Assembly: GCA_021413965.1 (NCBI GenBank)
Contig: JAIOPI010000015.1
Span: 1-64,000, forward strand
Origin: Lentisphaerota bacterium
GTDB lineage: Bacteria > Verrucomicrobiota > Kiritimatiellia > UBA8416 > JAIOPI01
Length of the DNA stretch: 64,000 nucleotides
Direction of reading: 5' to 3'
In this document: piece by piece, positions 3,534 to 38,905 of the stretch
Layout of the letters: every line of letters begins with the position of its first letter
Numbering within the stretch: position 1 is the first letter of the stretch
Program-made: the position numbers and the translations under genes
The notes under the pieces: generated by a model
What the model was told of the DNA's origin: nothing
Databases searched by the model: none
The model's input: only the letters and a program-made list of their open reading frames with translations

Positions 3534-3643
3534 GGCCAACGCCCGCGCTAACTGGCGGAGTTTCGCGGCGCGGTGGCTACTCCTCATCCTATCCGCAGCC
3601 ACCGTGCCGCGGAACTCCGTACATGTTCAGCGCGTTGTTGGGC
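3534..3643 (-). other. attC recombination site (cassette 1), 110-base type
   Basis: GGCCAAC at 3534-3540 and GTTGGGC at 3637-3643 are the outer boxes. The interior is nearly identical to the sites at 1824 and 2365, with GTGGCTAC...GCAGCCAC able to pair. It marks the end of the first cassette after attI. Confidence 0.88.
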
Positions 3644-4617: not shown

Positions 4618-5928
4618 ATGCTGAATGACAATGAGATGCTATTGGAGCAGTTTGGCGAGTATCTGCTGCGGCGTCAGTTGACGCCGGAACGCAATGCGCC
4701 GTTCATGGTCCGGTGGGTCCGGAAATTCCTGAGTCTGCCAGTTGCGCCAGGGGTTCCAATGGACGAGCGGATCGAGGAGTTCTCCGAGTGGCTGCGCGGT
4801 TATGGGATCACCGAGGAATGGCGGTTGGAGCAGGCGCAGCGAGCGGTCCGCATCTACTTCAACACCTTTCTCCATGCGAAAACCACCGCCACTGACCCCA
4901 CTCCCCGCTTCAGCCCCAATCCCGACGGCACGATTGATCGCACCGGCCTGATGACGTGCCTGCGTGACACGCTGCGGCTGAAACACTATTCCTATCGCAC
5001 CGAACAGACTTATACCGAGTGGGTGGACCGCTTTCTGGACTATCTGCGGGAAACGGATAATGGCGCCGCGCAGTCCGGCTACCGGATCACCGCCCAGTCC
5101 GTGAAGGACTTCCTCACTTACCTCGCCACGCGCCGCCAGGTGTCAGCCTCCACGCAGAACCAGGCCTTCAACGCCTTGCTCTTCGTCTGCCGGGAGGTTC
5201 TCAGCCTCGAAGACCTGAATCTGGACACGGGCGTTCGCGCCAAACGCGGGAAGAAGTTGCCGGTCGTGCTGACGGTGCAGGAAGTCCGAGCCCTGCTGGC
5301 GCACATGTCCGGGACCAGTCGCTTGATGGCGGAAATCGTTTACGGCGGCGGTTTGCGGGTCCTGGAATGCTGCCGGCTGCGCGTGAAGGACGTCGATTTC
5401 CAGGAGAACCTGCTGTTCATCCGCGGCGGCAAGGGCGACAAGGACCGGTCCACGCTGCTGCCGGTATCGGTCAAGCCGGCGCTGGCCGAGCACCTTGAGA
5501 ACATTCGGCATTTGCACCAGGCTGACCGCGCGGCGGGCGTGGCCCCGGTCTGGCTGCCGGATGCGCTGGCCCGGAAGTATCCGCGGGCGGGCGAGGAGTG
5601 GGCGTGGCAATACGTCTTCCCGGCCCGCGATCTGTCCACGGATCCGCGCGGCGGGGCCGTGCGCCGGCACCACGTCTGCGAGGGCATGCTGCAGAAGGCC
5701 GTGAAGATCGCCGTCCGCGAGGTGCCGATTCACAAACCGGCCTCCGTCCATACGCTGCGGCACAGCTTTGCCACCCACCTGCTCCTGCACGGGGTGGATA
5801 TCCGCCAGATCCAGGAATATCTGGGCCACCAGAGCGTGGAGACGACCATGATCTACACCCACGTGGTGAGGGATTTGCGCAGTCCGGCGCGCAGCCCGCT
5901 TGACTTGCTGGAGGATACGGAAGCCTAG
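4618..5928 (+). CDS. intI: Integron integrase with extra N-terminal domain
   Basis: 436 residues. This is a tyrosine recombinase that excises and inserts cassettes by attI x attC recombination. Catalytic residues visible: R247 (GGGLRVLE), K272, H378 and R381 (HTLRHSFATHLL), H404 (LGHQS) and Tyr413 in MIYTHV. Residues about 321-352 (YPRAGEEWAWQYVFPA then DPRGGAVRRHH) are the additional segment specific to integron integrases, separating it from XerC/D. Usual IntI proteins are about 320-340 residues. The excess is at the N-terminus, where residues 1-90 look like a second SAM-like DNA-binding domain before the canonical one (about 108-200). Start ATG 4618 has AAGGAG at 4601. Confidence 0.93.
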   Translation: MLNDNEMLLEQFGEYLLRRQLTPERNAPFMVRWVRKFLSLPVAPGVPMDERIEEFSEWLRGYGITEEWRLEQAQRAVRIYFNTFLHAKTTATDPTPRFSPNPDGTIDRTGLMTCLRDTLRLKHYSYRTEQTYTEWVDRFLDYLRETDNGAAQSGYRITAQSVKDFLTYLATRRQVSASTQNQAFNALLFVCREVLSLEDLNLDTGVRAKRGKKLPVVLTVQEVRALLAHMSGTSRLMAEIVYGGGLRVLECCRLRVKDVDFQENLLFIRGGKGDKDRSTLLPVSVKPALAEHLENIRHLHQADRAAGVAPVWLPDALARKYPRAGEEWAWQYVFPARDLSTDPRGGAVRRHHVCEGMLQKAVKIAVREVPIHKPASVHTLRHSFATHLLLHGVDIRQIQEYLGHQSVETTMIYTHVVRDLRSPARSPLDLLEDTEA

Positions 5929-9663: not shown

Positions 9664-12600
9664 ATGACAGCTTCGCAAAGCCCCTCCCCCGCCGCCGGCA
9701 CGCCGCCGACCTGGTTTTTGAAGATTGACGACGGATCCACCTTCGGCCCGGTGCCGGAGCCGGACCTGGTCAGCTGGGCTGAGCAGGGACGCATCGCGCC
9801 GGGGAACCAGATCTCGCGCGATCAGGCCACCTGGGTGGCCGCAGATTCCGTTCCCGCCCTCGGCATGGACTGGATGGTCGAGTTGGCGGACGGGACGCTG
9901 TTCGGGCCGATCAATATCAAAGCCCTCAGCGACCTGGTCCAGGACGGCACCGTCGACCTCGACGCCCCGCTGCAGCATCGGCTGACCGGCGAGACGACCA
10001 TCGTCGCCCGCAAGGAGGCGGAAATCCTGGGGGCGACCGGAATCTCGCCAGAGGACCAGGAACGCGAGGCCGCCCTCGCCGCGCGCGTGGCGGAACTGGA
10101 AGCACAGTCGCAAGCCGCGCGCGATGCCTTGGAGAAGGCGCGCGCCGCCGCCCGCGAACAGTCCGAACGCCACGATATCTACCGCAAGCAGACGGAGAAG
10201 GAATCGGAGTCCCTCAAGGGCCGGGTCAAGGAACTCGACGCCAAGAGCCACTCGCTGGCTGAGGCGCTGAAGGCGGCCGAGAAGAAACTCGAGGACGCCA
10301 AGGCGGCCCAGTCCAAGCGGGACATCGATTGGGTCGATACGGACAAGACGGCCGAGAAGAAGCGCCAGGAGCAGGCGCGCCGCGAGGTGGAACTGGACCA
10401 GCAGGTTCAGAAACTGACGCGTGAAGCGCGTGACGCGGAACAGAAAGTCGCCGACGCCAAGCTCGAGCTGCAGCGCCAGACGGCATCCATCGACGGGCTC
10501 AAGAAGCAGTCCGCGCAGCGTGAACAGCACCTGCAGCGCCAGGTCGAGGAATTGCGCAAGCAGGCGGCGGAAACGAGTGCGGCGCTGACCCGCGCCCGGA
10601 CCGATCTGGAGAAGCAGACGGCCTCCCGCCCCGACCCCAAACTGGCCGGCCGCATCTCGGAGCTGGAACAGCAGGCCCGCGATCAGGCGGGCCGACTGGG
10701 CGCCACCGAGCAGGAGTTGCTCGCGCGCAAAACCGAACTGGAAGCCGTCCAGCGCGCGGCAATGGAGCGCGAGCAGAATCTGGCGCAGGAACTCGCGGCG
10801 CAGAAGCAGCAGGCCGCCGAGGCCGCCGCCCAGCTGGAGAAGGCGCGCGCCGAACTGGACGCTGAGCGCGCCGCGCTGACGCAAACGCAGGCCGAGCGCG
10901 GTCGTCGCGAACAGGAGCTTCAGACGCGCCTTCAGGAGGCCGGCCAGGCCGCCGAAAAAGCTCAAACCGAACTGCGCGAGGCGCAGGAGCAGCTCCGGCA
11001 GCGAACGGAGGACTACCAGGCCCTGCGGTCGCAGACATCGGGCAAGGAACAGACGCTCGTCGAGCAGATCGAGCAGATCCGGGCCCAGTCCGACACGGCC
11101 GCCTCGCAGGTGGAAAAGGCGCGCCAGGACCTGGCTGCGCACCGGTCGGCCGTCGCGGAGAGCCCCGCGACTCTGCGCCAGCGGCTCGACGACTTGACCC
11201 AGGCGGCCCATGCGCTGGGCAAGCAGGTGGCGGCGGCCCGCCAGGCCGTTGCCGAGGCCGACTCCAAGCTCCAGGCATTCGAAGCCGAAGCGAGCGCCTC
11301 CGAACAACGGCTGCAGCAGCAGGTCGCCCATCTGGACGAGCACGCCCGGAAAGCCGTCGAGCAGGTTGCTGCATTCCGCCAGCAGTTGGCGGACGCCCTG
11401 GCCGGCACGGACCGCTCCCAGGATGCCGCGCTACGCAAGCAGGTCGAGCAGGCCGGCTGGCAGGCCGAGAACGCGGCCTCGCGCGTGCGCCAGGGCCGCA
11501 CGCAGCTGGCCGACTTCCGCGCCACCGCCGGCGCCACCCGCACCCAGCTCACGGCAGCCCGCGACCATGCCGCCGAGACGCTGGAAGATGCACAGCATGC
11601 GACCGACGAGAATCGCCGCGAAGCCGAGCAGGTCAGCACCGCACTCGAGCGGGCAGCCGCACAGCCGGCGGCCGCGCCGTCCGCCGCGCCGTCCGGCGAA
11701 TCCGCTCTGGCCGAGCGCCTGCAGCGCTACACCGCTGAAGCCACGGAGGCCGCGCAGGCGCTCGCCGCATCGCAAGCGGAACTCGCGCGGGTGCGCGCCG
11801 ACATGCGCGACGCCGAAACGGATCGCCGCAAGGTCGAACGGGAGCAGAAGCGACAGATTGCCCAGCTCCAGGCGGCCTACCAGGAAGCTTCGGCCGAAGT
11901 CCAGCAGCTCCGTCTCGCGCTCGAGGAGGAGCGCCGTCTCGCCGCTGGCGCGCAGGCCGATGGCCGTGCGCGCGAAGATGCCCTGCAGCAGGAGCTCGCG
12001 AATCTGCGCCAGGCGGCGGCTCAAACGGCCGCCCAGCTGGAAGAAGCCCAGCAGGCTTACACCGAAGTCCACGGACGCGGTCAGGATGTTGAACAACGCG
12101 CCGAATCCCTGCAGCAGCAGCTCCAGCAGCAGGCCGCGCAACTTGAGGCGCAGCTCCGGGAGACTGAAGGTGAGCTGAACAGCCTGCGGGCGGCGCTCGA
12201 GCAGGCACAGCATGATGCCCAGGCTCTGGCGGCGGAACATCAGCAGCGCATCGACCATCTTGAGGTCGCCGTGCGCACCGCCCGGAACGAGGCGAGCGAG
12301 CGGCAGGCGCGCGTTCAGGAGCTGGAAGCCGCCGCCGGCGCCGCGCAGCTGGAAGTTGCCACCGTCCAGCAGTCTCTCGCGGGAACCCGACAGCAGGAAG
12401 AGCAGATCCAGCGACAGAAGCAACAGGCGGAAGCCAGCCTCGACAAGCTGCTCGGCCGTACGCGCCATCTCGAGGCGCAGGCCGCGGCCTACCAGGAGCA
12501 GGCAGCCCAGACGCGCGAGGCGCTGGAAAACGCTCGCCGGCAGGTCCACGAAGCGGATAAGGCCCGCGAATCCGCCGCCGCGCACGCGGCCCAACTCGAG

Positions 12601-15600
12601 CAGGTCCTCAGCTCGTCGACGCAGGATCGTGATGGCATCCAAGCCGCACTCGAGCAGGCAGGCCGGGAGCGGGAAGCCCTTTCATCCGCCCTCCAGCAGG
12701 CCGAGGCCAGGGCCGAGCAGGCCGGGGCGTCGCATGCAGCGGCCGCGCGCGAGCGCGACGCGGTGCAGGCCGCACTGGCGGACGCCCAGCGCGAACAAGG
12801 ACGCCTCACGGATCTGCTGAAGCAGATGACTGACCGCGCCGACCAGGCGGAAGCCGCGTTTCACACGACGGCCCAGGATCGCGACACCCTCCGCGCCGCA
12901 CTGGAAAGCGCCGGCGGCGAGCGCGAGCGGCTGACGGCGGCCCTGCAGGACATGTCGGCGAAGGCCGAAGAGTCGGCCGCCGTTCTGCGAGCCACGGCAC
13001 AGGACCGGGACGGTCTGCGCGCCGCGCTCGAGGATGTCCAGCGCGAGCAGGAGCGCCTGGCCACGGCCCTCCAGGCCACGAGCGCGCAGGCGGACGAGAC
13101 CGCGACCGCGCTGCAAACGACGACGCAACAACGCGACGCCCTGCGGGTGGAACTTGAAGGCGTCCAGGGCGAGCAGCAGCGGCTCGCCGCCGCCCTGCAG
13201 GCCGCAAACGCGGCCGCCGAACAGACCGGGACGACGCTCACACTCACCGTCCAGGAACGCGACAACCTGCGTGCGGCCCTGGAAGCGGCCGATCGTGAGA
13301 ACGAGCATCTGACGCAGGCTTGCGAGGACTCCAATGCCAGGGCGGAGCAAACAGCCGACGCCCTCCAGGCGGCCACGCGCGAGGGGGAGGCCCTCCATGC
13401 CACGCTGACGGACACGCAGCAGGAGCGGGAACGGCTCGCGGCAGCCCTTCGGCATTCGCAGGCGACGGCGGACGACACGGCGGCCGTGCTGCGCACCACC
13501 GCCCAGGACCGCGACACCCTGCGCGCCGCACGGGAAGAGGCCCAGCGCGAATGTGAGCGCCTGACGTCACTCCTCGGCGAGACCACGACACGCGCCGCCT
13601 ACCTTCAGGACGAACTGAACCGGACGACCGCGGCGCTGGCCGATGTTCAGTCGGAACTCGCGACGACCCGCGCAACGCTCGATGCCACCGCCCAGGAGCG
13701 CACGCAACTGGCCGCTGACCTGCAGGCGGCGAGCGAACGCGTGGCGCAACTGCAGGACGATCTGGACCGCACGTCCACCACCCTCTCGCAGACCCAGGAT
13801 GAACTGACCGGCACGCAGGCCGCCCTGGCTGATCTGCAGGCCGTTCATGCCGAAGTCGACACGCAGCGGGTGACGCTGGAGACCCGGCTCGGCGAGTCGT
13901 CGTCAACCGCCGCGGAACTTGAACAGCAGCTGGCCACGGCCCGGCAGGAACAGGAAAGCGACCGCGAGCGCGCGGCCCAGCGCGAGCAGGACCTCAACGA
14001 ACAGATCGAGCAGTTCCGACGCGCGGCCGGCGAAAGCGCGCAGACCCTCCATATGTTGCAGGAGCAGCTGGAGAGCGCCTACGCCAACAGCCGGGACATC
14101 CAGGAGAAAAGCCGCCAGGCGCAGGAGCAGATGCGCGGGCGCATCGAGGACCTCGAAGGCCAGCTGCAGGCGACGCACGCCACCCTGGTCGACACGCGCA
14201 ACCAGCTGAACGAGGAGCAGCGCCAGTCCCAACTCCTGTCCCAATCGCGGGCCACGATGGAAGCGCAGCTGCGCCAGCACATTGACGAACTGAACGCCCG
14301 CCTCGCGGACCTTCAGGCACAACTGGAATCCACCGCCGCTGACCTGGAACACGAGCGCTCGCAGCATGCCGAGTCCCGCGCGACAGCGGAGCAGCAGGCG
14401 CTCGACCTGCAGGGCCAGATCGAGCAGCTGCGGAGCGAAAGCCAGCAGACGGCTGCCGAGCTCGCCACCGCACAGCGCGAACTGCAGCGCGCCGCGGAAG
14501 ACGCCCAGCGAGTCGAGGCCGAGTACGGCAACGAGCGCGCCGACCTCCGCCGGCGGATTGAAATGCTTGAAGGCCATCAAGCCGAGGCCCTGCGCGCCCT
14601 CGAGCAAACGCGCGGCGAGTTGAGTGCCGAGCGGGAAACGTGCTCGCAGCTGCGGCAGGAAAACGCCCAACGCACAGAGGACCAGCGCCGGCAGGTCGAG
14701 GATGTGAAGGAAATCCTCGTCGAGGAGACGGACGACATTGCCGCCGACCTCACGGCCGGGCGCGCGTTCCTGGAATCCGTGCGGGTCGCCTTCGACCAGA
14801 AGGAACGGACCTTCCAGGATCGCATCAGCGCGCTGCGCGACATGGTCGGCGATGATTTCGAAGCGCGGCGCGAGCAGCTCCGCCGGCGGCGCGAAGCACT
14901 CAAGGAATATACCGCGGTGCGCCAGCGGCTGGAGACCCAGCAGGCCGCCACGGAGGCGGAACTGGCTCAATACCGCAGCCGGCTCCAGGAGTTGCAGGCC
15001 GCGCACGACAAGGTGCGCACCGAGAGCCTTGCCGCCGTCGAGGATCTGGCGCAGACGAGGCTGGAACTCGATACGCAGCGCGAGACGGTGCGCGAACTGC
15101 AGGATCGCAGCCAGCGCACGGACTCCGAACTCACCCACCGGCTGGACCAGCTGCAGGAGGATTACCGCACCGCGTCGCGCTCGCTGCAGGAAGCCGAATT
15201 GAAGCTTGAGGAACTGGCCAAGCTGCGCGAAGACGCTCTCGGCGACGCGCGCCAGAAGGAGCAGGAGCTCGCGCACCAGCAGGCGCTGTACGAGCAGGCG
15301 GTCGAAGCGGCACGGTTGCAGGAACAGGAACTGACGCAACAGGTCGCAGACCTGCAGCAGCAGCTGCGCTCGGCAACGGAACGGCTCGACCAGGCGGAGT
15401 GGGACCAGCGCCAGAGCCAGAGCGCCCACGCCAACGCCCTCGAAGGGTTGGCCCTCGAGAAGGCCGAACTCCAGCAGTCCCTGCAGGAATGGGAGGAGAA
15501 AGACGCCCAGACCCGCGAGTTGCTTGCCAGCCGGACCGAGGAGCTCGAGCGCCTGGCCGCCCTTCACCAGGAAGCCCAGCTCGGGGCCCAGCATACCCAG

Positions 15601-17562
15601 GGACTCCTGCAGGAGCAGGTCGCCCGGCTGCGCGAGGAGCGCGACAGCATCAGCGCCCAGCTTCAGGCCGCGCGCGAGGGAATCGAGCAGGAGAAGACCC
15701 TGCGGGTCGATCTTGAACTTGGCACCAAGGATCGCGAGCGACTGCTGAACCAGCGCCTCGACCAGACGACGCAGAAACTCGACGCGGCCGTCGCGGCGGC
15801 GCAGCAGGCGCGCGAGGAAGGCCAGCGCCACAAGGCGCTCGCCGAGGCCATGCGCGAGCAGTTGACCCAGACCGAGGCCCAGCGCCTCGGCCAGGCCGAG
15901 GCCCTTCAGAAGGAACGCGAAGCGCTCAAGTCTGACCTGGCGCGCGAACGCGAGGCGCGGGACGACGCGGCCAACCGGGCCCGCCAGAAGGAGCAGGACT
16001 TCCTCGAGCTGCAGAAGCTCTTTGAGGCCCAGCAGGCGGAATCCGAGAAGCGCGAACAGGCCATGCAATCCCTGATGGCCGAGGCGCACGAGAAGATCCG
16101 CGGCATCTCCACCGAACTGCAGCAGGTCCAGCGTCAGAACGAGGGCGAAAAGACGCGCACCCAGCAACGGATGGAGGAACTGGAACGGCTTCGCCGAAGC
16201 GTGCAGGACGAACAGAAACTCCGCCGGTCACGCGAGCAGGAAGTCACCCAGCTTCAGAATCAGCTCCAGGAGCAGCGGGCGCTCGCGACGGAGCGCGACG
16301 AGCAGCTCCGCAACCGCAAGGAGCAGGTCGAGGACGAACTCGCGCGCCGGCAGCAACTGGAACAGGAACTGGCGCTGCAGCAGGTCGCCATGCGCGAGCT
16401 TGAAGAACGCTGCCGCATCCTCGACAGCCAGCTCACGCAGGAGAAGTCGACCCTGCAGGTGACGGAGGAGAAGGTTCAAACCGAGCAGGCCGGACTGCTG
16501 GCGCGCCTGGATCAGGCGCAGCAGGATTATAGCGGGCTGGAACTGCGGCTGGAGCAGGCCTTGCAGGATCTGGACCAGCAGAAGACGATTTACACGGAAG
16601 AGCAGCAGCGCAGCCGCCAGCGCATCCAGGACTTCGAAGTCCAGGTCGCGCAGATGCAACAGGAGCAGCAGGCGCTTCGCACCCAGCTCGAGCAGGCGGT
16701 TCACGAAGCGGAGCAGCAGAAGATCCTGCACGAGGACGAGCAGGAGCGCAGCCGCCTGAAGGTGGAAGACCTGCAGCAGCGGATTGACCAGGTGCAGCAG
16801 GAGCGCGAGGCCATGTCCGTGCGGCTGCAGCAGCAGAAGAAGTTCTACGACGAGGAGCGCGAGCAGCGCCGCAAGCGCGAAGTCGAGATTCTGCAGCAGA
16901 AGAAGCAGCTGCAGGATTTGACCGGCGTGCTGCGCCAGAAGGAACAGCAGGTCAAGCAGCAGACGAAACTGCAGGAAGACGACGTGACTCGCTGGAAGCA
17001 GAAGGAGCAGCTGCTGACGCGCCGCATCGAACAATTGCAGCAGGAAATGCGCGCGCTGGGTGCCCGGCTCGATCAGAGCCAGCGCGAGTTGAGCCAGCAG
17101 CGTGAGCTCGCCGCACAACCGCGCGAGGCGGCTCCGCGCAAACCGGCCGTGACAACCGAGGTCCGGCGTCCGGTGGTGGTACCGCCAACGACACCTCGTC
17201 CCCGCGCCGAGGTCGCCGAGACACGCTCGACGCCCGAACCCGTGCGCGAATTCGACACCCTCAACGTGACGCTGCCGGCGCCGGTCGCCACGCCGATCGT
17301 GGAACCCGACGTCGCGCCGCCAGCCGCAGAGCCGGCATCGGCACGTGCCGAAACCGCGCGCAAGATGCAGGACATCGAGCGGGCCGCGCAACGGGAGCTT
17401 GCGCAATGGCAGGAACGTGCTCGCGAAGAACAGTCCAGCGCGCAACCCATCGGCGAGACTCCGCCACCGATCACGCCCACCGAGCGGCCCGCCCTGCCGA
17501 CGACGGAAGAACAGCCGCGCAAAACCCTCTTTAGGCCACGCCCATGGATGCGCCTGAAATAG
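9664..17562 (+). CDS. Giant GYF-domain coiled-coil protein
   Basis: 2632 residues, start fixed by AAGGA at 9653. Residues about 18-65 and 68-115 are two GYF_2-like modules (WFLKIDDGSTFGPV; WMVELADGTLFGPI). From about 135 to about 2480 the protein is continuous Ala/Glu/Gln/Arg-rich heptad sequence predicted to be coiled coil, including eight tandem 42-residue repeats. A Pro/Thr-rich tail follows (about 2490-2632). There is no signal peptide or membrane span, so it is probably cytoplasmic. A fully helical rod of about 2300 residues would be of the order of 300 nm. It overlaps the next gene, a membrane protein, by 19 bases, which suggests coupled expression. Possible roles are a cytoskeletal filament, a scaffold or a tether. 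No characterised homologue is recognised. Confidence 0.85.
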   Translation: MTASQSPSPAAGTPPTWFLKIDDGSTFGPVPEPDLVSWAEQGRIAPGNQISRDQATWVAADSVPALGMDWMVELADGTLFGPINIKALSDLVQDGTVDLDAPLQHRLTGETTIVARKEAEILGATGISPEDQEREAALAARVAELEAQSQAARDALEKARAAAREQSERHDIYRKQTEKESESLKGRVKELDAKSHSLAEALKAAEKKLEDAKAAQSKRDIDWVDTDKTAEKKRQEQARREVELDQQVQKLTREARDAEQKVADAKLELQRQTASIDGLKKQSAQREQHLQRQVEELRKQAAETSAALTRARTDLEKQTASRPDPKLAGRISELEQQARDQAGRLGATEQELLARKTELEAVQRAAMEREQNLAQELAAQKQQAAEAAAQLEKARAELDAERAALTQTQAERGRREQELQTRLQEAGQAAEKAQTELREAQEQLRQRTEDYQALRSQTSGKEQTLVEQIEQIRAQSDTAASQVEKARQDLAAHRSAVAESPATLRQRLDDLTQAAHALGKQVAAARQAVAEADSKLQAFEAEASASEQRLQQQVAHLDEHARKAVEQVAAFRQQLADALAGTDRSQDAALRKQVEQAGWQAENAASRVRQGRTQLADFRATAGATRTQLTAARDHAAETLEDAQHATDENRREAEQVSTALERAAAQPAAAPSAAPSGESALAERLQRYTAEATEAAQALAASQAELARVRADMRDAETDRRKVEREQKRQIAQLQAAYQEASAEVQQLRLALEEERRLAAGAQADGRAREDALQQELANLRQAAAQTAAQLEEAQQAYTEVHGRGQDVEQRAESLQQQLQQQAAQLEAQLRETEGELNSLRAALEQAQHDAQALAAEHQQRIDHLEVAVRTARNEASERQARVQELEAAAGAAQLEVATVQQSLAGTRQQEEQIQRQKQQAEASLDKLLGRTRHLEAQAAAYQEQAAQTREALENARRQVHEADKARESAAAHAAQLEQVLSSSTQDRDGIQAALEQAGREREALSSALQQAEARAEQAGASHAAAARERDAVQAALADAQREQGRLTDLLKQMTDRADQAEAAFHTTAQDRDTLRAALESAGGERERLTAALQDMSAKAEESAAVLRATAQDRDGLRAALEDVQREQERLATALQATSAQADETATALQTTTQQRDALRVELEGVQGEQQRLAAALQAANAAAEQTGTTLTLTVQERDNLRAALEAADRENEHLTQACEDSNARAEQTADALQAATREGEALHATLTDTQQERERLAAALRHSQATADDTAAVLRTTAQDRDTLRAAREEAQRECERLTSLLGETTTRAAYLQDELNRTTAALADVQSELATTRATLDATAQERTQLAADLQAASERVAQLQDDLDRTSTTLSQTQDELTGTQAALADLQAVHAEVDTQRVTLETRLGESSSTAAELEQQLATARQEQESDRERAAQREQDLNEQIEQFRRAAGESAQTLHMLQEQLESAYANSRDIQEKSRQAQEQMRGRIEDLEGQLQATHATLVDTRNQLNEEQRQSQLLSQSRATMEAQLRQHIDELNARLADLQAQLESTAADLEHERSQHAESRATAEQQALDLQGQIEQLRSESQQTAAELATAQRELQRAAEDAQRVEAEYGNERADLRRRIEMLEGHQAEALRALEQTRGELSAERETCSQLRQENAQRTEDQRRQVEDVKEILVEETDDIAADLTAGRAFLESVRVAFDQKERTFQDRISALRDMVGDDFEARREQLRRRREALKEYTAVRQRLETQQAATEAELAQYRSRLQELQAAHDKVRTESLAAVEDLAQTRLELDTQRETVRELQDRSQRTDSELTHRLDQLQEDYRTASRSLQEAELKLEELAKLREDALGDARQKEQELAHQQALYEQAVEAARLQEQELTQQVADLQQQLRSATERLDQAEWDQRQSQSAHANALEGLALEKAELQQSLQEWEEKDAQTRELLASRTEELERLAALHQEAQLGAQHTQGLLQEQVARLREERDSISAQLQAAREGIEQEKTLRVDLELGTKDRERLLNQRLDQTTQKLDAAVAAAQQAREEGQRHKALAEAMREQLTQTEAQRLGQAEALQKEREALKSDLAREREARDDAANRARQKEQDFLELQKLFEAQQAESEKREQAMQSLMAEAHEKIRGISTELQQVQRQNEGEKTRTQQRMEELERLRRSVQDEQKLRRSREQEVTQLQNQLQEQRALATERDEQLRNRKEQVEDELARRQQLEQELALQQVAMRELEERCRILDSQLTQEKSTLQVTEEKVQTEQAGLLARLDQAQQDYSGLELRLEQALQDLDQQKTIYTEEQQRSRQRIQDFEVQVAQMQQEQQALRTQLEQAVHEAEQQKILHEDEQERSRLKVEDLQQRIDQVQQEREAMSVRLQQQKKFYDEEREQRRKREVEILQQKKQLQDLTGVLRQKEQQVKQQTKLQEDDVTRWKQKEQLLTRRIEQLQQEMRALGARLDQSQRELSQQRELAAQPREAAPRKPAVTTEVRRPVVVPPTTPRPRAEVAETRSTPEPVREFDTLNVTLPAPVATPIVEPDVAPPAAEPASARAETARKMQDIERAAQRELAQWQERAREEQSSAQPIGETPPPITPTERPALPTTEEQPRKTLFRPRPWMRLK
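12619..13626 (+). repeat. Eight tandem 126-base (42-residue) coding repeats
   Basis: Within the giant coiled-coil gene, residues about 986-1321 are eight units of exactly 42 residues (six heptads). Each starts with a form of AQDRDxLRAALE and continues through ER-x-x-L-x-x-AL. The units include TQDRDGIQAALE, ARERDAVQAALA, AQDRDTLRAALE, AQDRDGLRAALE, TQQRDALRVELE and VQERDNLRAALE. Divergence between units argues for old duplications. The period is kept without frame slips. Confidence 0.9.
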
Positions 17563-18359
17563 CACCTGCCGAACAGGTCCCGCCCAAGTTGGTGAGCCTG
17601 CAGGCCCGCCGGTTTGCTCCGGAGGGTGAGGCGGGACTGTTGCTTTCCGGCCGGATGTCGGCCCGGTTGGAACGACGGATGGCCGGCGATTTTCCCGTGC
17701 TGGAGGCCTTCCAGCAGTTCCTGGAACAGGAGCGGCGCCGCGCCCGCCGCCACCTGGTCGTCATGACCAGTCTCGTCGGCATCGTCCTCCTTGCGGTCAC
17801 GACGCTGGGCGTCTACCTGGGGACCCTGTTGCACCGCACAGTCAATCAGGACGTGAGCAAAGTCGAGGCCGGGCTGCAGGCCCTGCAAGTGGAAACCAGC
17901 CGGGTGCGCGAAGAGACGCGGGCCCAGGCGGCGGACGTGGCGACCACCGCCGCGGCATGGCGTGGCGAACTTGAGGACAAGGCCCAGGCACAGGCCGCGG
18001 AACTCGAACGCTACCAGAGTGCCATGGCGGCCATGAACGCCAAAGTGGCGTCACTGGAGCAACGCAATGAGACCCTGCTCAGCGATATGGAATCAGTCCG
18101 CAAGGTCGTGCCCTCGCTGACAACCGACATGGGCCTGGTGGTCAATATGCTGGAGGACCTGAAGTCACGGCCGGTTCCGCCCGTGGCCGCGCCCGCTCCA
18201 CGGCCTGTCGAGCCGGCGGCGGTGGCCGCGCCCGCCCCCGTGGCGAAGGCGCCAGTCGCGACAGCCGAACCGCCCGGCCCCCCGCTGACGCTCGCGCTTC
18301 AGATTTCGCCGCGCACAGGCGCAACGGCCATTCCCTGGCGGCTCGTCATTCCGGAATGA
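17544..18359 (+). CDS. Single-span membrane protein with coiled coil, partner of the giant protein
   Basis: 271 residues. ATG 17544 lies inside the end of the preceding gene. A cytoplasmic N-terminal region (about 1-69) is followed by one transmembrane segment (about 71-92, VVMTSLVGIVLLAVTTLGV). An extracytoplasmic coiled coil (about 95-190), a Pro/Ala-rich linker (about 198-245) and a short C-terminal segment follow. This topology would let the N-terminus contact the cytoplasmic giant protein while the rest spans the periplasm. Its stop overlaps the convergent LysM lipoprotein gene by 14 bases. No family recognised. Confidence 0.8.
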   Translation: MDAPEIAPAEQVPPKLVSLQARRFAPEGEAGLLLSGRMSARLERRMAGDFPVLEAFQQFLEQERRRARRHLVVMTSLVGIVLLAVTTLGVYLGTLLHRTVNQDVSKVEAGLQALQVETSRVREETRAQAADVATTAAAWRGELEDKAQAQAAELERYQSAMAAMNAKVASLEQRNETLLSDMESVRKVVPSLTTDMGLVVNMLEDLKSRPVPPVAAPAPRPVEPAAVAAPAPVAKAPVATAEPPGPPLTLALQISPRTGATAIPWRLVIPE

Positions 18360-18885
18360 AGAGTTTCTGCCCCACGCGCAGGTTATTCGCGTTCTTTAGC
18401 CCGTTCGCTTCGATAATGGCCGACGGTTTGACCTTGTAGGCCGCGGCAATGGCTGAGAGCGTTTCGCCCTGCTGCACCACGTGCTCATAGCCGTCGGCAG
18501 AGCGTGACCCTCCCCCGCTTCCGCCCCCGGTCGTGCGCACCACATCAGCCATCTTCTTGCTCAACTGGTCCACGATCTGTTCGCGATCACGCTGGCGCGC
18601 GGCTTCCATGCTGCCCACTGAGCTCTCCAAGGCGGCCAGGCGCTGCTGCTCGTCGCGGCGGCCGGCCTCGATCCCGGCCTCCAACTGGTGCATGCGTTCG
18701 TAGAGGTCCTGGCGCTGGGCCTCCATGTCGTTCACACGCTCCTGCAGCTGGTTGACCTGCACCTGGAGCGTTTGAATGGTCATCTCCGACCGCGCCTGTT
18801 CGTCAACGGCCGAAGGATCGTAGAGCGTGGCGCAACCGCTGGCGGCAAGCGCCAGCGCCAACATAAGCATAGCGCGGATGATCAT
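18346..18885 (-). CDS. LysM-domain lipoprotein with coiled coil
   Basis: 179 residues. ATG 18885 gives a signal peptide MIIRAMLMLALALAASGC with lipobox ASGC. A frame extension to 18957 would add residues ahead of the signal, so it is rejected. A coiled coil (about residues 30-105) and a Gly/Ser linker lead to a C-terminal LysM domain (about 132-179, YEHVVQQGETLSAIAAAYKV ... NNLRVGQKLFIPE), which binds peptidoglycan glycan chains. It is probably anchored in the outer or inner membrane and holds the wall. The gene is convergent with the membrane protein at 17544-18359. Confidence 0.85.
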   Translation of the reverse strand: MIIRAMLMLALALAASGCATLYDPSAVDEQARSEMTIQTLQVQVNQLQERVNDMEAQRQDLYERMHQLEAGIEAGRRDEQQRLAALESSVGSMEAARQRDREQIVDQLSKKMADVVRTTGGGSGGGSRSADGYEHVVQQGETLSAIAAAYKVKPSAIIEANGLKNANNLRVGQKLFIPE

Positions 18886-18958
18886 AGGCGAAGTCGTATC
18901 ACCGCGCGGGAGCCGGATCAAGTTCTTTTGAATCCCGCTTGCCTTTCGGCATTCCACA

Positions 18959-23563: not shown

Positions 23564-23647
23564 GTGCCTTCCAGAGATGGACTTGCCGCGGGCCGGTTGC
23601 TAGTATCCTCCGACAACAAACGTCCTGTCCGCCGGGCCCGATACCAC

Positions 23648-24769
23648 ATGAAGTCGACTGTTCATCTTGCCTTTGACTCCGGCTCCGCCAAAGGCCGGCG
23701 CGTGGCCGTGCCGGAGGGCGGGTTTGGCCTGGGACGCGAGTCGACAAATGACCTGGCCATTGACGATGCCACCCTGTCGCGGGAACACTGCCAATTCTTC
23801 TTTCGCGCCGGCAAGCTCTGGGTTTCGGATCTTCAGAGCGCCAATGGCACGGAAGTGAATGGCAAGCGGATCGCGAGTGTGGCGCTCGAAAAGGGCGACA
23901 GCGTCGTGATCGGCAACACGCGCATTCGCATCCTCTCCGCCAAGCAGCCGCGCGTGGATAAGCGCCCCAAGCTCCCGAGCACGGGAGCCGTCGTCCAGGA
24001 TGCGCCCCAGCCTGCGGCGTTCACCAAATTCCTCCAGAACTTGGCCTGGGCGGCGCTCATCGTGGCGTGGCTCTTCCTGGCCTATAGCTTGTGCCTGCCG
24101 CCGCCCACCCCGCCACCGGCCCCGGAGACAATCATCGCAGAGCCGCCCCCACTCGACGCCGCGCGTGAGGAGGAGCCACGGGTCACCGCCGCGACGGACG
24201 ATGCTGAACCCGACCAGTCCACGCCGACGTCCGAAAGCGATGCCACGGCCGCGGCAGATGCCGAATCCCTGCACGCGATCACGTTGGCCGTCGCCAAGCG
24301 TCTGGTCGCGGAGGATTACTCGGCGGCGCTGGCGATGATCAACGCGCACCGAGGCGTCCAACATTCCCCCCCCACGCAGTCCGCCCTTGAGCAACTGGCG
24401 GCATACGTCACCGGCATGCAGGGCTTGAATGCCAGGGTCATTCAGTCTCTGGGCGCCCAGGCCGGCCGACGGATCACGTTGCGCGCGGGTTCGACCAATG
24501 TCCAATTCCGTGTCGTCGCGGTTGCCGGAACAAAGCTCAGAGGCGCCGTGGTGACGGCCACCGGCGAGAAGGAAACGTCGGTCGAACTCTCCAAGCTGCA
24601 CCCGGAAGACCGACTCCACTGGCTGGGCGAACCTCAGACACCGGAGGCCTTTGCCCTCAGCGCCGTGCTGAAGTTGAAGGGCGGAAACCGAGAGCTGGCG
24701 CAACAGCAGGCTCGATCAGCCGGCCTCCTCGCCGACGCCCTTCAGGAAGTACTGACCGCCCGGCAATAG
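23648..24769 (+). CDS. FHA-domain single-span membrane protein
   Basis: 373 residues from ATG 23648. An N-terminal FHA domain (about 4-98) has GFGLGRESTNDLAIDD, LSREHCQFFF and SANGTEVNG, the phosphothreonine-binding loops. A transmembrane segment (about 131-152, AALIVAWLFLAYSLCL), a Pro/Glu/Thr linker and a C-terminal extracytoplasmic domain (about 215-373) follow. FHA proteins read Ser/Thr-kinase signals or organise secretion and division complexes. No kinase is in view. ligA follows 18 bases later and may be co-transcribed. Confidence 0.85.
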   Translation: MKSTVHLAFDSGSAKGRRVAVPEGGFGLGRESTNDLAIDDATLSREHCQFFFRAGKLWVSDLQSANGTEVNGKRIASVALEKGDSVVIGNTRIRILSAKQPRVDKRPKLPSTGAVVQDAPQPAAFTKFLQNLAWAALIVAWLFLAYSLCLPPPTPPPAPETIIAEPPPLDAAREEEPRVTAATDDAEPDQSTPTSESDATAAADAESLHAITLAVAKRLVAEDYSAALAMINAHRGVQHSPPTQSALEQLAAYVTGMQGLNARVIQSLGAQAGRRITLRAGSTNVQFRVVAVAGTKLRGAVVTATGEKETSVELSKLHPEDRLHWLGEPQTPEAFALSAVLKLKGGNRELAQQQARSAGLLADALQEVLTARQ

Positions 24770-36896: not shown

Positions 36897-38096
36897 TCAG
36901 CGTGGCGACCACGCCGGCGAGTACCAATCGCCCTGCATTGTGGTCAACCGTACTTCAGGGTCGCCAAGAGTGTCAAGGATATACAAATCACTGTGGTATC
37001 CTTGGGTTTTTGCGCACACAATATGCCGCCCGTCGGGTGCCCAGGATGGCTCTTCGTAATCCGCCCCGCTGCTTGTCAACTGCGTTTCCTCGCCCGTGGC
37101 TGGATTCAGGATGCAGGCCTGGTAGCGCCCGCCACGGCGGCTGCTGTACACCAGCCGCCCGTCCGGCCCCCAGTCCGGCGACACGTTTTCCGATCCGCGG
37201 AACGTCAACCGCTTGGCCGCCCCACCCGCGGCCGTCATGACGTAGACCTGCGGCGACCCGGAACGGTCCGACACGTAGGCCAGGCGCGAACTGTCCGGCG
37301 ACCACGTCGGACACGCCTCCGTCGCCTGCGCCGTGCTCGTCAGCCGCTGCACGCGGCTCGATCCCAAATCCATCACATACAGTTCCGCATTGCCGTCGCG
37401 CGACAGCACCAGGGCCAACTGCCGCCCGTTCGGCGCCACTGACGGACCGGTGTTGATGCCGGGAAAATTAGACACCTTCTTGCGCGTCCGGCTGCCCAGG
37501 TCTACGCTGTAAATGTCTGCATAGCCACCATGGTACGACATGTAGTAGATCTGGCGCATATCCGGCGTCCACCCCGGCGTCATGCAAGGCTTGTCATCGC
37601 GCGTCAGTTGCGCCATCCCCTGCCCGTCCGCGTCGCACACGTACAGGTTCTTGCGGCCGCCCGGCGCGCCAATCAGCGCAATGCGCGTCGACGCCATGCC
37701 CGGCTTGCCCTTGACCGCCTTCACGATGTCGTCCGCCAGCCGGTGGGCGGCACGGCGCCAGGTCGCGCTGGGCTCGTCGTAGGCGCGCGTGAAGTAGCGG
37801 GTGCCGCCGGCGGCATTAGCCACATCGGCGTCAATCCGCGCCGCGCCATCCACCGCGCATTTGCCGCGCACCGTGATCGCCGCGCCGCCGCTGACAACAT
37901 TGAAATATCCCGAGCGCATCAGATCGTCGCGCACCACCTGCTTGAGCGCCCCGCCCTGTCCGGAAGCCGCTTGCAGCCCCGACAGGTCGATGTCCGATTT
38001 GCCCGTGCCCTGCTTGACGATGCGAATATCCTGCGCAGCCGCGACTCCGGCCATGCACACGGCCAAGACCGCCGCCACGATCCCATTCCTGCTCAT
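36897..38096 (-). CDS. tolB: Tol-Pal system protein TolB
   Basis: 399 residues. ATG 38096 is nine bases from AAGGAG; the ATG at 38102 is too close to it. A Sec signal (GIVAAVLAVCMAGVAAAQD) leads to the N-terminal TolB domain, then a beta-propeller with repeated blades: MTPGWTPDMRQIYYMS, GPSVAPNGRQLALVL, CPTWSPDSSRLAYVSD, SPDWGPDGRLVYSS, EPSWAPDGRHIVCA. It is periplasmic and binds Pal. It lies 35 bases after the TonB/TolA-like gene. Confidence 0.95.
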   Translation of the reverse strand: MSRNGIVAAVLAVCMAGVAAAQDIRIVKQGTGKSDIDLSGLQAASGQGGALKQVVRDDLMRSGYFNVVSGGAAITVRGKCAVDGAARIDADVANAAGGTRYFTRAYDEPSATWRRAAHRLADDIVKAVKGKPGMASTRIALIGAPGGRKNLYVCDADGQGMAQLTRDDKPCMTPGWTPDMRQIYYMSYHGGYADIYSVDLGSRTRKKVSNFPGINTGPSVAPNGRQLALVLSRDGNAELYVMDLGSSRVQRLTSTAQATEACPTWSPDSSRLAYVSDRSGSPQVYVMTAAGGAAKRLTFRGSENVSPDWGPDGRLVYSSRRGGRYQACILNPATGEETQLTSSGADYEEPSWAPDGRHIVCAKTQGYHSDLYILDTLGDPEVRLTTMQGDWYSPAWSPR

Positions 38097-38131
38097 GCCC
38101 ATGCGCTCCTTCTCCGGCGCGTACACCGCGC

Positions 38132-38905
38132 TCACTTCACGACAAATTCAATCGTCAATACCCGGTGCCGCTCCAGGAACGATACCGACAACCCCGGAAT
38201 ACGGTCCACCGCATTCAAGGCCGCTTCCACCGATCGGTCAAACTCCGGTATCCCCGACCCCCGCACCAGCTCGCGCTCCGAAACACTCCCGCCCGGCCCC
38301 AGCCGGAACGACGCCGTGACGGTCCGGTTGCCGACCGTGTCGCGTGAAGGCTGCACCCAGACCCGATCCATGGCTTGGCGGATCAAAAGCATGCTGCGTT
38401 CGTCTTCGCTCGGAATTGCGGTGTTGTACGTCCCCGCCTGAGCGCCCAGCAGCAGGCGGCTCCGGATTTCCTCCGGCGTCAGGGGATTCAACGTGTGGCC
38501 AGGGCGCCGCATCTTCTTCTTGCTGACCTGCACCTTCGTCTTCGTGGCGCTGGTGCCGTCCGCCGGTTTGGCAAGCTTGGCCGTATCTACCACTTTGGGC
38601 TTGGCGGCCTCGACCACCTTCGGCGTCGGAGCGGGTGCAGGCTCGGGCGTGCGAGGCTTTGGCGTGGCCGCCGGCGGCGGCGGTTCGGGTTCGGCCACCT
38701 CCTCGTTCCCGTCACCCTCATCCGGCTCACCCTTGAGCGTGCGCGTGTCCACGACGAACTCAATCGGAACGATCGTCGGCGCGGCTTCGCGAAAGCGGGC
38801 CCCGATGAGCGGCACGATCAGGAAGAGGAGCAGCAAGGCCACGTGGCCCGTGCTGACCCACGCCACCCGGCGGTAGAACACCTGCTTCTCCACCGCGTGA
38901 TTCAT
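38132..38905 (-). CDS. TonB/TolA-type energy-transducing protein
   Basis: 257 residues from ATG 38905 with AGGAGG directly upstream. One transmembrane helix (about 21-38, HVALLLLFLIVPLIGA) precedes a Pro/Glu/Lys-rich periplasmic linker (about 55-125) and a C-terminal TonB-like domain (about 160-257; VTASFRLGPGGSVSERELVR, FDRSVEAALNAVDRIP). Position just before tolB and pal suggests a TolA role, but the C-terminal domain reads like TonB. TolQ/TolR or ExbB/ExbD homologues are not in the window. Confidence 0.85.
   Translation of the reverse strand: MNHAVEKQVFYRRVAWVSTGHVALLLLFLIVPLIGARFREAAPTIVPIEFVVDTRTLKGEPDEGDGNEEVAEPEPPPPAATPKPRTPEPAPAPTPKVVEAAKPKVVDTAKLAKPADGTSATKTKVQVSKKKMRRPGHTLNPLTPEEIRSRLLLGAQAGTYNTAIPSEDERSMLLIRQAMDRVWVQPSRDTVGNRTVTASFRLGPGGSVSERELVRGSGIPEFDRSVEAALNAVDRIPGLSVSFLERHRVLTIEFVVK

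Follow-up and report, generated by a model that had tools for sequence, protein, structure and literature searches.

A giant GYF-headed coiled-coil protein and its membrane-spanning partner in Kiritimatiellia as a possible cytoplasm-to-wall tether

The stretch analysed here, referred to as the window, comprises 64,000 nucleotides from a Lentisphaerota bacterium (positions 1 to 64,000, forward strand, of contig JAIOPI010000015.1, assembly GCA_021413965.1; GTDB lineage Verrucomicrobiota, Kiritimatiellia, UBA8416, JAIOPI01). It encodes a giant protein with two GYF-like modules in front of a very long coiled coil, a single-span membrane protein encoded next to it and called the partner, and a LysM lipoprotein whose gene converges upon that of the partner. 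We regard it as just on the probable side that the giant is a long cytoplasmic tether, with its C-terminus at the inner membrane and its GYF head at the opposite tip, and that it is linked towards the cell wall. The gene order and its conservation, the heptad periodicity, the GYF fold (in a model), the one-chain architectures of relatives and the enrichment of a short proline motif were observed directly. New here are the GYF-pair genes in 30 of the 31 genomes sampled from the order, the one-chain tethers and the proline motif common to the partner and to soluble rods; no earlier description of such GYF/coiled-coil proteins was found among the titles and abstracts listed from one open literature library.

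The giant, its partner and the LysM lipoprotein

The giant gene (9664-17562, forward strand) encodes 2632 residues with a mass of 296 kDa and an isoelectric point of 5.0. Its end shares 19 bases with the start of the partner gene (17544-18359, forward strand, 271 residues), for which relatives were found, and the LysM open reading frame (18346-18957, 203 residues) lies on the reverse strand. The coordinates and length of the giant, the 19-base overlap and the convergent LysM gene reported in the first-pass annotation were all reproduced in the list of open reading frames. The partner and LysM genes, described there as ending at one point, do converge, but they overlap by 14 bases (18346..18359) instead. 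This overlap is a perfect palindrome, tcattccggaatga, because of which both proteins finish in IPE. DNA tandem repeats across the region were negligible.

The two N-terminal GYF-like modules proposed at first reading were recovered by AlphaFold, which, given 34 sequences, modelled residues 11-140 as two GYF-like folds with a mean predicted local distance difference test score (pLDDT) of 92. Module 1 (residues 17-66; 9712..9861, forward strand) is delimited by Pfam GYF_2, an alignment of 18 pairs, the model and PDB matches, and module 2 (about residues 69-118; 9868..10017, forward strand) by the model and the alignment; in the model, the N-terminal pair adopts the GYF fold. Against Pfam GYF_2 itself, module 1 scored 24.2 bits, just below the cut-off of 25.8, and rose to 25.9 bits when frame neighbours were added; module 2 gave no Pfam match. 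Besides GYF_2, no Pfam domain was detected in the giant at E <= 0.01. At the head of the VIA structure list, 11 solved structures stand apart from all others; each is a GYF-domain or a TOC-TIC chain, and they include Smy2 with a proline-rich peptide and Myxococcus GltJ (7z3c); both VIA and Foldseek are read from the matches listed, which leaves room for other folds. Twelve positions (W17, L19, F27, G28, P29, R43, P46, W57, W70, V72, G81 and P82) are invariant in the 18 aligned pairs. Module 1 retains the aromatic residues W17, F27, W38 and W57. In module 2, the counterpart of W38 is a leucine, L91, and therefore only module 1 is the likely ligand reader, module 2 being likely degenerate in ligand binding.

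Behind the modules, the coiled-coil rod extends over about residues 131-2499 (10054..17160, forward strand) with a 3.5-residue period. Its hydrophobic periodicity of 3.5-3.55 residues exceeds the 95% shuffle level in 93% of the 84-residue windows (111 in all), and a single continuous coil of this size would, by arithmetic, reach up to about 350 nm. Self-comparison revealed an internal repeat of six heptads (42 residues; 12868..13233, forward strand) in which 48 of 80 positions are identical at an offset of 42. The membrane-proximal segment (about residues 2321-2480; 16624..17103, forward strand) is the best conserved part of the rod in a 60-residue scan against 23 relatives. An alignment of 21 relatives defined two further C-terminal elements on the forward strand: a helix motif, LxxLEAxAQRELxxW (17365..17430), present at 20 of 21 order loci (missing in L074) and in 6 of 19 rod genes outside the order, and a tail motif, F(R/K)xxPWM(R/K)LK (17521..17559), present at 21 of 38 loci. 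The giant has no membrane-like stretch, its best 19-residue hydropathy being 0.91. A search of its residues 1-140 against 5.8 billion proteins returned no match and did not recover the giant itself, and hence is uninformative about its spread.

The partner has one membrane-like stretch, in agreement with the single span first ascribed to it. Its hydropathy is 2.36 from residue 72, and it is preceded by ERRRARRHL; the hydropathy and the flanking arginines predict a span at about residues 72-95 (17757..17828, forward strand) with the N-terminus inside. Near the N-terminus, the alignment shows PPKLV (17580..17594, forward strand), an instance of the motif PP[KQR]x[VLIA], here called the PP motif. 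It is followed by the juxtamembrane motif SLPVLEAFQEFLDxERRRxR, here FPVLEAFQQFLEQERRRARR (17691..17756, forward strand), and in the 24 aligned sequences P51, L53, F56, E63 and R68 are invariant. AlphaFold models one helix from residue 51 to 207 and then a terminal hairpin; the part of the helix beyond the span (17829..18164, forward strand; pLDDT up to 98) is predicted to be periplasmic, and the beta hairpin (residues 249-268; 18288..18347, forward strand) carries the pattern LxIxPxGxxxxVxWRLPLPE.

The third protein has a LysM domain (PF01476, E 1.1e-15) and a coiled coil, and its lipobox cysteine is invariant in 23 aligned sequences, as befits a LysM lipoprotein. Because of the lipobox position, the ATG at 18885 was chosen as the likely start, which gives a gene at 18346..18885 on the reverse strand with the cysteine at residue 18. 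The domain and the signal suggest that the lipoprotein resides in the outer membrane and binds peptidoglycan.

Conservation of the trio and the family of GYF-pair rods

The first-pass annotation had made its proposal depend on whether the trio is conserved in relatives, and within the order it proved to be. The partner profile matched 26 of the 31 genomes at E <= 1e-8, and 24 matches were kept; those in G011 and G023 were dropped, their alignments beginning only at model positions 56 and 60, and the G011 match adjoins a PilM/PilO-like pair (named by eye). At all 21 loci where the upstream side could be judged (L022, L023 and L028 being too near a contig edge), the partner is immediately preceded by a GYF/coiled-coil gene, which encodes from 268 to 2,632 residues; at L014, only the last 189 residues of the rod are on the contig, with the head outside. 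A convergent LysM gene follows at 23 of the 24 loci (the exception is L032), and at 17 of these 23, across families, it overlaps the partner by exactly 14 bases. The outer flanks vary, with dnaE upstream at 8 of the 24 loci and manA, accD or neither downstream at 11, 5 and 8, respectively, although at some loci the contig is too short to show these genes. Partner-linked rods vary in length between 268 residues (L033) and the 2,755 of a frame in L063, and they retain the GYF pair; conserved ends on a rod of free length would suit a spacer or tether.

Outside the order, 39 partner loci of the class were considered, namely 38 taken from the matches listed, plus L027 and L035 and less L097, which was excluded for want of the motif; several other listed matches, for example G299, G237, G212, G265, G354 and G395, lie outside this sample. 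A clear giant or rod gene adjoins the partner at 17 of the 39, and a probable piece of one at L078 and L086. At the more permissive E of 1e-3, the profile matched 152 of 387 genomes of the phylum; matches outside the class were not counted, since, among those listed, they start at model position 72 or beyond, within the helix, with the exception of G168 (aligned over 32-195, E 1.3e-4). The same profile retrieved 24 proteins from the protein database, one of them the window's own partner. The 16 named partner loci all come from metagenome-assembled genomes, labelled Kiritimatiellae/Kiritimatiellia (7), Lentisphaerae/Lentisphaerota (6), Verrucomicrobia, uncultured bacterium and, in one case, Victivallis vadensis. 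In family f34 (L078, L083, L093, L095), two consecutive GYF-pair genes precede the partner.

The GYF pair is not confined to these loci. Its profile matched all but one of the order genomes, 27 of them at least twice, and at E <= 1e-10 it matched 103 of the 387 genomes of the phylum, 93 of which belong to the same class. We examined 60 places besides the partner-linked giants, at which 45 GYF open reading frames had a visible stop. In 26 of these the pair is C-terminal (in some also N-terminal) and no membrane span occurs in the part seen, 7 being cut at the 5' end; 18 have an N-terminal pair only, together with a membrane span, and one (L154) has an N-terminal pair without a span. The partner-linked giants, N-headed too but lacking a membrane span themselves, form another kind. 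The window's genome itself has three other members: a double-headed rod of 1,244 residues (L098), a soluble protein of 414 residues (L099) ending in APPKTVRTLLQKHRTTR, and a two-span form (L100). The last belongs with L131 and L147, also of the window's genus, in which the pair is followed by two membrane spans within about 330-380 residues and no OmpA-like end is present.

Among the 18 membrane GYF rods, 14 finish in an OmpA-like strand of the NRTV type, L152 being divergent, and of 7 single-span paralogues scanned with Pfam, 6 scored above the cut-off for the OmpA family (PF00691), L102 being without a match at E <= 1e-3. A GH[TSC]D sequence with an ARA/ARS box, which we take to hold the Asp and Arg through which OmpA binds peptidoglycan, was readable by eye in 15 of 17 one-chain membrane frames (not in the truncated L107 or in L152), whereas a script found the strict OmpA motif in 1 and the GHTD pattern in 11 of the 17. 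The Pfam GYF_2 cut-off was exceeded by L106, L122, L136, L100 and L102 but not by L119, and L150, L118 and L099 gave no match. A database search with a one-chain paralogue returned 9 proteins, 6 of which have both OmpA and GYF_2. These relatives, in which GYF pair, rod, span and OmpA-like domain follow one another in a single chain, independently support a tether from cytoplasm through membrane to wall.

Elsewhere in the window, an integron integrase (4618-5928; TIGR02249, 380 bits) adjoins three attC-like repeats (1831-1935, 2395-2473 and 3539-3643), one of which is clearly palindromic, in a stretch lower in G+C; together they are probably a chromosomal integron with cassettes. An FHA-domain protein (23564-24769) is partly similar to the gliding protein GltG (residues 56-227).

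Evidence for a tether and its alternatives

We take the rod to meet the membrane with its C-terminus because the start of the partner gene and the end of the rod gene lie no more than 30 bases apart at 16 of the 20 order loci measured, because in G003 (L028, first 120 bases, reverse strand) the tail motif, as PRPWMRLK, lies within the partner frame at the contig edge, and because in the one-chain paralogues the span comes after the rod. The single-span partner would hold the giant at the inner membrane by this end and continue past the membrane as the periplasmic helix and hairpin, the LysM lipoprotein would supply the link to peptidoglycan, and the GYF head, at the far tip, would catch proline-rich peptides. 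We infer these binding steps, the polarity of the split version, the wall linkage and the role of the giant-partner-LysM set.

The PP motif offers a candidate for what the heads could catch. It occurs within the last 30 residues of 11 of the 26 soluble C-headed rods, in none of the 18 membrane rods and in 3 of 811 other open reading frames, and it stands near the N-terminus in 17 of 23 order partners for which the contig includes that end (counted by eye, with start codons partly uncertain), compared with 4 of the 811 background frames within the first 45 residues. In families f6 and f16, neither the partner nor the soluble rods seen (G008, G020, G018 and G022, one rod apiece) have it. Family f14 aside, this distribution would fit a common receptor, for which the GYF pair is the first candidate by family habit. 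If GYF heads recognise PP[KQR]x[VLIA] motifs, anchored and soluble GYF rods could then assemble into a wall-coupled meshwork beneath the membrane. We suggest, tentatively and as a weaker step than the tether itself, a cytoskeleton-envelope system of the Kiritimatiellia's own, in which soluble and anchored GYF rods would share the PP[KQR]x[VLIA] code and the resulting cortex would be bolted to peptidoglycan by OmpA domains or by the partner with the LysM lipoprotein, its reach being set by rod length.

Several observations weigh against these proposals. The best Foldseek E for the GYF model is 0.013, with none below 0.001 among the matches listed, and in the alignment of 18 module 1 mostly has GRI or GRV at the position where GYF domains have the tripeptide that names them. 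PPG, the canonical core of GYF ligands, was absent from the giant in a sequence scan. The f14 partner has the PPQ form of the PP motif, and the five soluble C-headed rods seen in that family are without it. In the G003 frame the contig opens directly with TAA, which leaves a fusion unproven; either a fusion or a shifted boundary would account for the arrangement. Outside the order, 19 of 38 judged partner loci have no adjacent giant (L092 being too near an edge), and a convergent LysM neighbour occurs at 2 of 35 judged loci (L027 and L058; the downstream side is cut at L061, L079, L080 and L081). A further locus, L077, has a LysM gene on the same strand, 313 bases from the partner. The tether from cytoplasm through membrane to peptidoglycan envisaged at first reading gains support from the one-chain relatives; the LysM gene, scarce next to the partner outside the order, is not an obligate part of it.

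It is conceivable, though rather improbable, that the LysM gene encodes a structural lipoprotein and stays beside the partner because of the palindromic overlap, as a bystander without a functional tie. The overlap would make separating the two genes costly, and it is shared by most order loci; outside the order, where LysM genes mostly do not adjoin the partner, the association is largely gone, and lying on the convergent strand the LysM gene has no transcript in common with the partner. However, the neighbourhood is kept at six order loci that have a gap or another overlap (L021, L028, L030, L034, L013 and L074), and L077 keeps its LysM gene nearby in the other orientation.

The relation between tail and PP motif bears on how giant and partner meet. 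Both motifs occur at 21 of 38 loci, neither at 15, the PP motif alone at 2 and the tail motif alone at none, that is, all 21 tail-plus loci are PP-plus and 15 of 17 tail-minus loci are PP-minus. The labels were set partly by hand, PPVSL (L016), PPSTV (L074) and L030, missed by the regular expression, being counted as PP-plus, and PSWM (L018) and LPWM (L059) as tail-plus. On the tree, however, 5 tail and 3 PP changes leave one independent pair on well-supported branches (sign test p = 1), a further point against our proposals, and statistical coevolution of the two motifs was rejected for too few independent events. The pattern would be expected if tail and PP motif clamped the giant to the partner while the GYF pair had an unrelated ligand, perhaps a protein of the nucleoid, of division or of motility. 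We consider this unlikely: the association comes from few independent events, and the PP motif is not partner-specific, because 11 soluble C-headed rods end in it. Binding of the GYF modules to the giant's own Pro-rich tail was set aside, as the giant has no PPG core and the tail motif is missing in families that retain the GYF pair. The abstract of PMC12171015 describes a PPG-hydrophobic motif as needed for GIGYF2 binding.

We also doubt, to a similar degree, that the giant is an intermediate-filament-like polymer of the crescentin kind that controls cell shape, with the partner as its membrane attachment. Its length and heptad period would suit such a polymer, double-headed soluble rods could cross-link it, and the relative L106 has a weak PF00038 match (23.4 bits against a cut-off of 40). 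Yet the window's giant gave no PF00038 match at E <= 0.01, the roughly tenfold variation in rod length would be unusual for fixed lateral packing, and MreB is present in all 31 order genomes, so that cell shape has another candidate. A gliding-type focal-adhesion apparatus related to Myxococcus GltJ/AglZ is highly improbable, given that the sequence profile matches GltJ only at E 0.56, that the fold fits GltJ no better than eukaryotic GYF domains and that the nearby FHA-domain protein is similar to GltG only in its FHA part, no search aimed at other gliding genes having been made.

If the tether is real, a deep bacterial lineage uses rods with an adaptor head and an adjustable length to link cytoplasm, inner membrane and wall. 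Both binding and wall attachment are directly testable through the PP motif and the one-chain OmpA versions.

Comparison with known systems

The modules of the giant resemble the GYF family (CD2BP2, GIGYF, Smy2; Pfam GYF_2) in predicted fold, in the GP core and in their aromatic residues. They differ in forming a tandem pair, in the lack of a W38 counterpart in module 2 and in the residues that mostly replace the GYF tripeptide, and the coiled-coil rods that bear the pair can be as long as about 2,750 residues. The GltJ (AgmX)/AglZ pair of Myxococcus xanthus likewise combines a GYF domain (7z3c), an inner-membrane protein and a cytoplasmic coiled-coil protein. GltJ includes a zinc ribbon, and AglZ is a coiled coil that contacts it; in contrast, the GYF pair described here sits on the rod itself, and the Pfam scan of the giant found no zinc ribbon. 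A review passage (PMC12288465) lists both GltJ and AglZ among MglA effectors.

The partner also recalls Tol-Pal, with sequence kinship examined by Pfam alone. TolB_N was detected in 1 of the 31 order genomes, the window's own, as a weak match (22.3 bits; 36897-38135) with a profile that was positive in 3 of 14 controls, so that TolB does not appear as a regular companion in the order. In Tol-Pal, a single-span protein with a periplasmic helix faces a wall-binding lipoprotein, as the partner is predicted to do here. In view of the scarcity of TolB_N in the order, GYF rods could help to answer how envelope layers are coupled, and one may speculate that they replace some of Tol-Pal.

The one-chain paralogues are closest to MotB/OmpA-like peptidoglycan-binding proteins, as most of those scanned have one span and then a terminal OmpA-family domain, and one database relative carries the source name flagellar motor protein MotB. 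In the paralogues, however, a long GYF-headed cytoplasmic rod precedes the span, and in the window the arrangement is divided among three proteins, namely the giant, its partner and the LysM lipoprotein. Crescentin and other bacterial coiled-coil scaffolds are, like the giant, long cytoplasmic coiled-coil proteins; the giant family differs from them in its adaptor head, its split membrane anchor and its roughly tenfold range of lengths. Long coiled-coil tethers are known in eukaryotes, and the giant, if our reading is correct, would be their bacterial counterpart in working principle only.

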